From IMG/VR virus record IMGVR_UViG_3300023179_000530, positions 1 to 23,293 of that record: a stretch of DNA of 23,293 nucleotides; one strand, written 5' to 3'. The position numbers and the translations under genes were made by a program. The DNA is from a virus. The notes below the pieces were generated by a model. That model did no database searches, was not told the origin of the DNA, and worked only from the letters and a program-made list of their open reading frames with translations. Positions 10,514-13,404 of this stretch are shown piece by piece; positions within the stretch are counted from its first letter, which is position 1; every line of letters begins with the position of its first letter.

Positions 10514-10630
10514 ATGTGTAAGGGTTGTGGATGCGACTGCTCAAAGACAAACTGTAAGGGTAAATGCGGAACCGGTAAGTTCTCCAAAGCTGCCAAGACA
10601 GTTAAAAAAGCAGTAAAAAAAAGTTACTAA
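10514..10630 (+). CDS. 38-aa six-cysteine Lys-rich miniprotein
   Basis: The ORF starts at ATG 10514, two bases after the previous stop, and ends at TAA 10628-10630. The product begins MCKGCGCDCSKTNCKGKCGT and continues with a Lys/Ala/Val-rich helix (KFSKAAKTVKKAVKKSY). Cysteines are at 2, 5, 7, 9, 14 and 18, six in the first 18 residues, with no His. This looks like a metal-binding knot (zinc or iron) or a set of disulfides, fused to a basic tail that could bind nucleic acid. There is no strong SD, so it may depend on coupling to the upstream gene. A run of eight A at 10615-10622 near its end allows an alternative C-terminus (see findings). It is a real gene by spacing and composition; the function is unknown. 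Confidence 0.62.
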   Translation: MCKGCGCDCSKTNCKGKCGTGKFSKAAKTVKKAVKKSY

Positions 10631-10658
10631 AAAGAAGTAATAGTTAATTAAGACTATC

Positions 10659-10734
10659 GAGGGATTTTGCGGTACATTCAGTAGTGACGCCGGATTCATC
10701 CGGATACTGCTGAATTACTGCCCCTCAGAAGAGG
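10659..10734 (+). promoter_or_regulatory. Long structured RNA hairpin that can compete with an SD-masking hairpin
   Basis: In the 113-base gap between genes, 26 base pairs can form between 10659 and 10726: GAGGG (10659-10663) with CCCTC (10722-10726); GCGGTA (10669-10674) with TACTGC (10716-10721); ATTCAGTAGT (10676-10685) with ACTGCTGAAT (10706-10715); and CCGGA (10690-10694) with TCCGG (10699-10703) around a TTCA loop. The left arm has bulges ATTTT and C. There is no T-run, so it is not a terminator. The 3' arm CCTC (10723-10726) can instead pair with GAGG (10731-10734), which is the SD of the gene at 10744. The two pairings exclude each other, like a switch. Structure is read from sequence; regulation is inferred. 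Confidence 0.68.
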
Positions 10735-10743
10735 AACTTTGCA

Positions 10744-10893
10744 ATGTTAGATCTAGCCGCTAGATTAGCCAGACAAGAGTCTGAAGCCGACCGACGAGAG
10801 TTTCTCGCTGGTGTTACTGGCATTAATGGCATAGATATAAAGTCTTTAGCAGCCGGCGTTGTTTCAATGGCACTGCTGCTAAAGGGCAAATAA
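10744..10893 (+). CDS. 49-aa small protein behind the structured leader
   Basis: The ATG at 10744 has GAGGAA at 10731-10736 upstream, and the ORF ends at TAA 10891-10893, directly followed by the GTG of the next gene. The product begins MLDLAARLARQESEADRREF, a charged amphipathic helix, and ends with GIDIKSLAAGVVSMALLLKGK, a hydrophobic stretch of about 14 residues. This could be a short membrane-active or protein-binding helix, but it is shorter than a standard membrane span. No known family comes to mind. Its SD can be masked by the hairpin upstream, so it and perhaps the genes after it may be under translational control. Confidence 0.62.
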   Translation: MLDLAARLARQESEADRREFLAGVTGINGIDIKSLAAGVVSMALLLKGK

Positions 10894-11223
10894 GTGGCCA
10901 GTACAGAAAATTTACGCGAAGTTATTCATCAAATTGGAGAGCAGCTTTCTAAGAAAGCTACTGCAAATTTGCGGGGCCATGCCTATGATAGCGGCTGGCC
11001 TGTAGAGCTTTCTCGCCAACTTAAAGTTATTCACCTTGGCGAAGGTCAATTTAAAGTAACTTACCCTGAAGATCTAGAAGATCAAATTTTAGATCAAGAA
11101 GTGGGTACCCAAGACTCCCCAGCTAACCCTGTTATTAGAACCTTTATGAACAGGTTTACAGACAACACTTCTTATTACGACACTTTGCTGGCTGCCGCAA
11201 TTAATAAATGGCAGGTGTTCTAA
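10894..11223 (+). CDS. Putative neck/tail-completion protein (gp10-like)
   Basis: The 109-residue product starts with GTG 10894, immediately after a TAA, with AAAGGG at 10881-10886 seven bases upstream. The N-terminal helix LREVIHQIGEQLSKKATANLRGHAYDSGWP is followed by short strands (LKVIHLGEGQFKVTYPEDLEDQILDQEVGTQDSPANPVIRTFMNRF). The YP-x-LEDQILDQEVGTQDSPANPVIRTF block, with its strand-then-tight-turn pattern ahead of a helix, resembles the HK97 gp10-type neck/tail-completion fold. The next gene begins on its stop codon, and the pair stands just before the sheath, where tail-terminator and completion genes normally lie. Assignment is by synteny and motif style, not confirmed homology. Confidence 0.6.
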   Translation: MASTENLREVIHQIGEQLSKKATANLRGHAYDSGWPVELSRQLKVIHLGEGQFKVTYPEDLEDQILDQEVGTQDSPANPVIRTFMNRFTDNTSYYDTLLAAAINKWQVF

Positions 11224-11819
11224 TGCCTTTTATTCTTAATGAAGATAAAGCTTTAAAGGCCCTATTGACTGGGATCACCGTAAGTGACTTTAAAAGTAAT
11301 AGTAGACCAGTAGGAGTTTGGTTTGGGCAACCTGATGTAGAAATCAGAAATCAGAGCTACCCATATATAACCATAGAACTTATAGATATTACTGAAGATC
11401 GTGCCCGTAATAACAGAGGCTATGGTAAGCTTAACTATACCCCTGAAGGCCTTGACTCTACTGTAGACCACTATTCAGAGCTACCTGTTCCGGTAGATCT
11501 TGAGTACCAAGTAGTTTCATACGCCCGCCAGCCTATGCATGACAGAATGATACTCTCAAGCATTTTGTCTACAAAACTTCCGCTTAGGTATGGTACATTA
11601 GAGATTCCAGAAGACAATACTTTACGAAGAGTTGAGCTTCTTGGACATAGAAAAAGGGACACAACAGAAGGCGGAAAAAAGCTTTATGTTAACCTTTTTT
11701 CAATAAAAGTAAGCAGTGAGTTGTTCTACAGCAAGATTGTAGCGGCAGCAGCAGCTATCGAACACGTAAATATTGCGCTATCAACTGTTACAAATATTAA
11801 CGTTACACCACCCGCATAA
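11223..11819 (+). CDS. Putative tail terminator / sheath-end protein
   Basis: I use ATG 11223, which overlaps the previous TAA as TAATG; an in-frame ATG at 11208 adds five residues and lacks a better SD. The product has 198 residues. The N-terminus FILNEDKALKALLTGITVSDFKSNSRPVGVWFGQPDVEIRNQSYPYITIELIDITEDRAR fits a small alpha/beta fold seen in tail terminator proteins. DHYSELPVPVDLEYQVVSYARQPMHDRMILSSILSTKLPLRYGTLEIPED continues it (domain of strands and a helix that binds the tube end). It is the last gene before the sheath. The function, capping the tube and sheath at the head-proximal end, is inferred from position and fold-like pattern. About 50 bases without features separate it from the sheath. 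Confidence 0.65.
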   Translation: MPFILNEDKALKALLTGITVSDFKSNSRPVGVWFGQPDVEIRNQSYPYITIELIDITEDRARNNRGYGKLNYTPEGLDSTVDHYSELPVPVDLEYQVVSYARQPMHDRMILSSILSTKLPLRYGTLEIPEDNTLRRVELLGHRKRDTTEGGKKLYVNLFSIKVSSELFYSKIVAAAAAIEHVNIALSTVTNINVTPPA

Positions 11820-11868: not shown

Positions 11869-13404
11869 ATGACTACATTTAGTCGCCCCGGTGCCTATAT
11901 ACAGGAGACAGTCTCCCAGCAACAGTATATTGCACCTCAAGACCGCGCCGATGCAATTGGCGCTTTTATTGGAAAGCTATCGCAGGGTCCAACAACCCCT
12001 ACGCTTGTTTCTACCTGGTCTGATTTTGTAAAATACTACGGTGGTTTGGACTACACGTTGCCAACAAGCGTGGCACTGTACCAATTCTTTGCTAACGGTG
12101 GCCGGGATGCTTACGTTCGCAGAGTAACTCAGTCTGGTGCTACTACCGCTTCTGTTACTCTTACAGACTCTGCTTCTGCAGCAACTCTTACCATTTCTGC
12201 AAAAAGTCCAGGTGCTTGGGCTACCGCTACTTCAACGTCAGGCATCTCAGTAGAAGCTTTGGCATACGGAACTGGTAGCCGCTTCTCTATTGTAGTTTAC
12301 GGGCCTGTTGCTACTGGCGCAGATAGCCGTTCAAATATCCTAGAGCAGTTCACTGATCTTAGTGTTATCTCAACCGATGCACGCTACGCCCCGGCAATTA
12401 TCAATGCTACTTCTGCATACATTACTGCAACTGATCTTTCAACCTCAACTTTGCGTCCTTTGGCAGACGGAACTCTTCATGGCCTTACCGGCGGTACTGA
12501 AGGCACTGGTGGAATCACTTCTGCAATTCTAGGCGCCGCAACTTCAGACCTTGATCAGTTTGATACCCCGCTTATTCTTAATATTCCAGATGCAGCCTAC
12601 TTTAACAGTTCAGACTGGGCAGTTGCATACGGTGCGTTAATTAACTATGCGGATACTCGTGGAGATTCATTTGTTGTAGTAGACCCTATTGCCGGTCAAA
12701 CAGCGTCTGGTGTTATTACCGCAGCCTCAGGTCTTTCCGGTTCAGGCAAGAATGCGGCTGTTTACTACCCATGGTTAACTATTCCAGATACCACAAAAGC
12801 CGTAAGAAGCGTTACTGTTAACGTTCCTCCAGGCGGTGCAATTGTTGGTCAGTACCAGGCAACTGATGCATCTCGCGGTGTATTTAAAGCCCCTGCAGGT
12901 TATGGAAACCGCATTGCTTTAGCTCTTGGTTTGGAAAAAAGACTTACCAACGCTGAACTAGATACTCTTAATGGTTCAGGAACTGCTGTAAATGCAATCC
13001 GAATTGTACCTGGAACAGGTATTTGCGTTATGGGTGCTCGCACTATTTCTAACCTTTCTCCAAATCAGTACGTAAATGTTAGAAGAAGCCTAAACTACAT
13101 CAAGAAGAACCTAACTAACCTAAGTAACTTTGCAACATTTGAAAATAATGATGCTTACTTGTGGGCTCAACTACGCTCATCATTAGGTCACTGGCTTGCT
13201 CAATACTGGGCGCAAGGCGGCTTAAGAGGAGCTAATCCAGTACAGGCTTACTACGTACTATGCGATGATACGACAACAACTGAGTCTGACATTGCATCTG
13301 GCAGGGTAAATATTCAAGTAGGTGTTGCTCTGCAATACCCTGCTGAATTCATTGTAATCACTATTGGACAGATTACGGGTAGTGCCGCTGTCGTCCAGGC
13401 CTAA
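11869..13404 (+). CDS. Tail sheath protein
   Basis: The 511-residue product starts at ATG 11869 with AAGGAG at 11857-11862. It begins with FSRPGAYIQETVSQQQYIAPQ, the usual sheath start PGVYI(x)E, followed by DAIGAFIGKLSQGPTTPTLVSTWSDFVKYYGGL and LYQFFANGGRDAYVRRV, all diagnostic sheath motifs. The C-terminal domain contains VPPGGAIVGQYQATDASRGVFKAPAGYGN, NAIRIVPGTGICVMGARTIS, NVRRSLNYIKKNL and a terminal strand (VNIQVGVALQYPAEFIVITIGQI) that interlocks sheath subunits. This proves a contractile tail. The sheath surrounds the tube and contracts on host contact. The insert between about residues 110 and 190 varies among families. It is followed by the tube gene 24 bases downstream, as in other contractile phages. 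Confidence 0.96.
   Translation: MTTFSRPGAYIQETVSQQQYIAPQDRADAIGAFIGKLSQGPTTPTLVSTWSDFVKYYGGLDYTLPTSVALYQFFANGGRDAYVRRVTQSGATTASVTLTDSASAATLTISAKSPGAWATATSTSGISVEALAYGTGSRFSIVVYGPVATGADSRSNILEQFTDLSVISTDARYAPAIINATSAYITATDLSTSTLRPLADGTLHGLTGGTEGTGGITSAILGAATSDLDQFDTPLILNIPDAAYFNSSDWAVAYGALINYADTRGDSFVVVDPIAGQTASGVITAASGLSGSGKNAAVYYPWLTIPDTTKAVRSVTVNVPPGGAIVGQYQATDASRGVFKAPAGYGNRIALALGLEKRLTNAELDTLNGSGTAVNAIRIVPGTGICVMGARTISNLSPNQYVNVRRSLNYIKKNLTNLSNFATFENNDAYLWAQLRSSLGHWLAQYWAQGGLRGANPVQAYYVLCDDTTTTESDIASGRVNIQVGVALQYPAEFIVITIGQITGSAAVVQA

Follow-up and report, generated by a model that had tools for sequence, protein, structure and literature searches.

Stem-loops of the ompA type, located at the 5' terminus of the transcript, are mRNA stabilisers. 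In phage T4, genes e, soc, 49 and I-TevI carry translation-initiation hairpins over the SD, and the late promoters of gene e lie in the sequence encoding the 5' arm of a hairpin found in longer transcripts only (PMC3014915). We analysed a 23,293-nt stretch of viral DNA (IMG/VR record IMGVR_UViG_3300023179_000530, hereafter the window), in which a leader precedes a 49-aa gene in a virion operon.

For a promoter located in a hairpin arm, the closest known case is T4 gene e: the putative -10 TACATT of the window lies inside the arm of a long hairpin, and the same was found in all near relatives. In T4 gene e the hairpin covers the SD, but here a separate local hairpin masks it in both transcripts, the 5' arm does not sequester it, and the long form of the window would expose it. 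As in the ompA type, a short hairpin is predicted within about 4 nt of the predicted mRNA start, and in divergent groups its position is kept and its sequence changes; in the main group here, however, the hairpin sequence is also conserved, and an mRNA-stabilising role is putative. As in riboswitches and RNA thermometers, the SD is occluded in the leader and two competing pairings exist in the window, but there is no Rfam match, no sign of an aptamer, and the competing pairing is unconserved.

The closest cultured relatives are the Streptomyces phages of the BRock group (BRock, GiJojo, LuckySocke and pSt2308), with capsids 69-70% and sheaths 34-37% identical. They share the gene order scaffold, capsid, tailspike, neck and sheath, but no 49-aa gene is listed in their records, nor any comparable gap ahead of the neck and sheath genes. 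So far undescribed, the leader is conserved in phages whose hosts are probably freshwater actinobacteria; a literature search on leader RNA of freshwater actinophages found nothing relevant.

Relatives of the leader

About 75 distinct leaders, all located before homologues of the 49-aa gene, were collected through protein searches and DNA patterns. They comprised a near group (the window, L001-L008, L018, L023-L026, L028-L034 and L056; 16 distinct sequences in the promoter and folding comparisons), a large wide group (most of L088-L151 and L168-L285; 55 distinct leaders) and the divergent members L011, L035, L037, L040, L042, L082 and L146. L034 was left out of leader alignment A8. The core pattern matched in at least 120 stretches; among 69 distinct matches, five were judged to be chance, having no terminator, TANNNT or ~50-aa gene. 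For the neighbouring tail protein, 459 relatives were found. No DNA homologues were found among cultured phages and no protein homologues in species genomes.

Predicted promoter and 5'-terminal hairpin

The conserved unit is composed of a predicted promoter, a 5'-terminal hairpin, a C-rich spacer and an SD-masking hairpin (Table 1). In wide-group sequences a terminator stem and a T-run come first and TANNNT next; after 6-7 nt there is (G/A)ACGCCGG-loop-CCGGAACCCUGC, then the C-rich spacer, and finally anti-SD, SD and start. Divergent members have hairpins of unrelated sequence, yet their terminator, TANNNT, hairpin and SD hairpin follow one another in that same succession.

TANNNT was located 5-8 nt upstream of the small hairpin in every group, and 55 of 55 distinct wide-group leaders have it at the equivalent place with the middle three bases varying. 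This is as expected of an actinobacterial -10, TANNNT being the preferred SigA -10 in Mycobacterium smegmatis (PMC6448022). The near-group variants are TACATT, TATATT and TAAATT. A -35-like hexamer reads AAGAYT or AAGATA in 15 of the 16 distinct near-group sequences and AGGATT in the remaining one; its distance to TA[CTA]ATT is exactly 17 bp in all 16, with a spacer of drifting sequence. No -35 is evident in the wide group, and the consensus sigma-70 scan found no promoter at the leader. Both results weigh against a promoter, although the latter is expected if TANNNT alone is kept. The fixed distance of TANNNT, together with the terminator that lies upstream outside the near group, suggests that the mRNA probably starts near 10686. 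In RNA initiated there, the SD hairpin would be accompanied by the core hairpin (10690-10703) alone.

The stem of the 5'-terminal hairpin is predicted 4 nt from the predicted mRNA start, and compensatory changes were found at three of the five core pairs among 32 leaders. A covariance model of 32 leaders matched strongly just once in the window, and once in each of 11 out of 12 long relatives of 55-104 kb. Every one of these matches preceded the ~50-aa gene, which abuts neck/tail genes; the relative left unmatched was L035, whose hairpin is divergent. Three further matches were weak (E 0.04-0.3). A mobile or repeated element was ruled out by the one strong match per phage genome. When folded as a whole, from the predicted mRNA start to slightly beyond the start codon, most leaders are no stabler than shuffles. 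A single-stranded motif ACCC(C)UGC was also observed 3' of the 5' hairpin in wide and divergent leaders, often twice (e.g. L088:1790-1815).

Table 1. Features of the leader region and neighbouring genes (positions in the window)
Feature	Position	Strand	Basis or remark
Cys/Lys-rich mini-ORF upstream	10514-10630	+	8-A run shifts its end relative to L001
-35-like hexamer AAGACT (predicted)	10650-10655	+	Near-group conservation
GAGGG, competitor for CCCTC 10722-10726	10659-10663	+	Complete in window, L001 and L056 only; similar G-runs in L028-L033
Long hairpin, stem segment 1	GAGGG 10659-10663 with CCCTC 10722-10726	+	RNAfold
Long hairpin, stem segment 2	GCGGTA 10669-10674 with TACTGC 10716-10721	+	RNAfold
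-10 hexamer TACATT, TANNNT (predicted)	10673-10678	+	TANNNT at equivalent position in near, wide and divergent leaders
Long hairpin, stem segment 3	10676-10686 with 10705-10715	+	RNAfold
Predicted transcription start	10686 (+/- 1-2 nt)	+	First G of GACGCC, 7 nt after -10
5'-terminal hairpin GACG-CCGGA-TTCA-TCCGG	10686-10703	+	Compensatory changes; position kept in divergent leaders
Long hairpin, stem segment 4	CCGGA 10690-10694 with TCCGG 10699-10703	+	RNAfold; cap TTCA
SD-masking hairpin CCTC-AGAA-GAGG	10723-10734	+	SD stem statistics across leaders
49-aa gene (predicted leader-controlled)	10744-10893	+	Conserved small protein, hydrophobic C-terminal helix
109-aa neck-like gene	10894-11223	+	Abuts 49-aa gene (TAA-GTG)
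198-aa tail protein	11223-11819	+	Weak Pvc16_N match, below Pfam cut-off; adjoins sheath
Tail sheath	11869-13404

Predicted masking of the SD

The earlier note had proposed that CCUC/GAGG pairing can mask the SD in the window; this predicted masking has strong support and is conserved. The anti-SD/SD pairs are CCUC/GAGG, CCUUC/GGAGG or CUCC/GGAG, located upstream of the start as in SD-sequestering leaders. An SD stem of at least 4 bp was found in 71 of 71 leaders versus 45 of 145 control genes, which were picked by a simple ORF/SD rule; the loops vary in sequence and length. With a stricter stem count the figures were 86% for leaders, 27% for shuffled leaders and 7% for control genes. The SD was predicted to be masked in 97% of leaders versus 26% of control genes (p=2e-22), with a median unpaired value of 0.09 versus 0.48. 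The C-rich spacer alone supplies part of this masking: shuffled leaders had a mean SD unpaired value of 0.20 versus 0.10 observed, and 76% of them were below 0.3. At 4-5 bp, the SD hairpins are weak and may be opened by ribosomes. The 49-aa protein had no Pfam or PHROGs match above cut-off.

The long hairpin and its distribution

RNAfold of 10620-10780 (37 C) gave a long hairpin of 27 pairs with -48.9 kcal/mol and a z of -4.8; none of 200 shuffles was equally stable, and when every 75-nt window of either strand was scanned, it ranked among the three most stable regions. The fold is exactly the one described in the earlier note, with four stacked segments that are interrupted by two bulges and an internal loop and capped by TTCA. 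The two alternative pairings of the last CCTC (10723-10726), with the GAGGG arm or with the SD GAGG at 10731-10734, are both present. As had been stated, there is no T-run 3' of the hairpin, and the intrinsic-terminator scan of the window had no match there. Nor does it belong to a known riboswitch class: Rfam covariance models gave no match at gathering score in the window, nothing relevant in the window stretch at E up to 5, and nothing in ten relatives at E up to 1. A chance fold was ruled out by the shuffles and the conservation in relatives. The presence of G.U pairs (pair 15-42 in 14 of 14 sequences) makes a DNA operator palindrome appear unlikely.

The long hairpin was present in all near members (z -2.5 to -6.8). 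In this group 94.4% of cells are paired, the covariation score exceeds that of all 500 shuffles, and double changes occur at three pairs; bulges, and in several members A.C or U.U mismatches, were also found. In the wide group the genes are the same but the long hairpin is missing, and the cross-pairing of promoter and leader has a mean of 15.5 expected pairs in the near group versus 6.4 in the wide group. On what the earlier note gave as refuting its reading, a lack of covariation or homologues that lack the hairpin, the answer is therefore divided: judged from these alignments, the long hairpin is specific to the branch of the window, and its covariation is modest.

The near group has no upstream terminator and the other groups have one, so read-through RNA would be expected in the near group. 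By sequence, the 5' arm of the long hairpin (10659 to about 10685) is predicted promoter DNA, and the hairpin would therefore form in read-through RNA only. The case illustrates that promoter DNA folded onto a leader can resemble a riboswitch when a single sequence is considered.

Folding of the 16 near sequences as long and short RNA gave a restricted result for the GAGGG/CCCUC switch claimed earlier. In the window, L001 and L056 the SD was predicted to be unpaired at 0.74-0.76 in the long RNA versus 0.00-0.01 in the short RNA, and the claim holds for these three. It fails in the other 13 near sequences, where the value was 0.0-0.22 in the long RNA, and in the wide group. Conserved mutually exclusive pairings, as in a riboswitch, were not found beyond the three sequences. 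This confinement suggests that the predicted switch is possibly a peculiarity of one small lineage rather than a function of the leader.

Proposed function and alternatives

We consider, with a probability of about 0.62, that the locus supplies the neck and contractile-tail genes with an operon promoter and with a leader that restrains translation. The comparison of leaders establishes the layout, its conservation, the compensatory pairs, the single copy and the constant place; the start of transcription, the protection of the mRNA, the extent of translational restraint, the coupling and the role of the long hairpin are inferred. The promoter would start a new transcription unit at ~10686, and the short hairpin at the very 5' end would likely shield the mRNA from decay. 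The CCUC/SD hairpin would to some degree restrain translation, not only that of the 49-aa gene but also, through coupling, that of the neck and tail genes abutting it; the products of all these genes would thus be made at a low or controlled rate. The branch of the window would have lost the upstream intrinsic terminator; its read-through RNA would fold the promoter sequence onto the leader, and the resulting long hairpin most likely insulates the two units from each other, through processing or blocking. Leaders of this kind occur across a large phage group that is largely uncultured, and with such a single fixed cis-element the promoter, start site and translational control of the tail operon would be predictable from sequence.

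The long hairpin could instead be a T-less terminator or RNase III site that ends or cuts the read-through RNA and replaces the lost terminator, the leader hairpins being incidental. The branch of the window, which lacks the terminator of the other groups, alone has the long hairpin, and another strong T-less hairpin follows the capsid gene; but the bulges and mismatches of several members do not suit this function and the conserved SD hairpin is left unexplained, so that we regard it as unlikely. A transcript-length switch, in which GAGGG of the read-through RNA captures CCCUC and frees the SD, the promoter RNA keeps it masked, and the 49-aa gene is translated differently from the two, agrees with the predicted exposure of the SD in three sequences. 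It appears quite improbable, since the 13 other near sequences are predicted to mask the SD in both forms, the whole wide group lacks the switch, and GAGGG sits in the drifting promoter spacer and by shared sequence probably belongs to one lineage only. More improbable still is timing of the T4 gene e type, with a long early RNA that masks the SD and a late RNA, from the promoter in the 5' arm, that is translated freely. The predicted promoter shares with that of T4 gene e (PMC3014915) its location within 5'-arm DNA, but the arm here does not pair with the SD, which is predicted to stay masked in the short RNA.

A true sensor might also be speculated, in which the GACGCC hairpin and the ACCCUGC repeats are bound by a phage or host protein or by a ligand, whose binding opens or closes the SD hairpin at a defined stage of infection. 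GACGCCGG and AACCCUGC are near-invariant in the wide group in the sequence itself, beyond pairing, and ACCC(C)UGC is kept beside unrelated hairpins in divergent leaders. Yet the structure is small and simple and has no Rfam relation, the sequence of the 5' hairpin is replaceable in divergent groups, and ACCC is eroded in the branch of the window, which makes a sensor doubtful. Equally tentative is the wider idea of a new class of phage leader RNA, with the 5'-terminal GACGCC hairpin and repeated ACCCUGC recognised by some phage or host factor; by opening the SD hairpin, this factor would time or dose the whole tail operon in actinobacterial myoviruses.

Genomic setting and host

The window contains a contractile-tail virion operon with major head protein, sheath, T4 gp19-like tube, baseplate and tape-measure proteins. 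In relatives the 49-aa and neck-like genes overlap by GTGA, and translational coupling of the 109-aa neck-like gene to the 49-aa gene is likely.

WhiB is encoded in 12 of 12 long uncultured relatives (none in the 23-kb window itself) and in one of 14 control genomes, that of Corynebacterium; actinobacterial hosts are therefore likely. The capsid, ~70% identical to that of the Streptomyces phage BRock group, was also counted for an actinobacterial host. The hosts are probably freshwater actinobacteria.

The 113-base gap reported before the 49-aa gene is right for this record, though the end of the upstream mini-ORF depends on an 8-A run. The window has 8 A at 10616-10640 versus 7 A in L001, and the frame ends in KKSY-stop with 8 A versus VTKKK-stop with 7 A, about 10 bases later. 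This difference may reflect a slip in sequencing or genuine slippage. Cys-rich and Lys-rich mini-ORFs (MCATCGCG..., ...KKKK) were also observed upstream of the leader in L028-L042, with number and order varying among close relatives.

A very stable T-less hairpin is located at 1894-1927, just 3' of the major head gene. L289 contains a different strong hairpin in a similar place, followed by a very similar leader (CAAATATCGAGxTATTCATTAGGAGAATACA).
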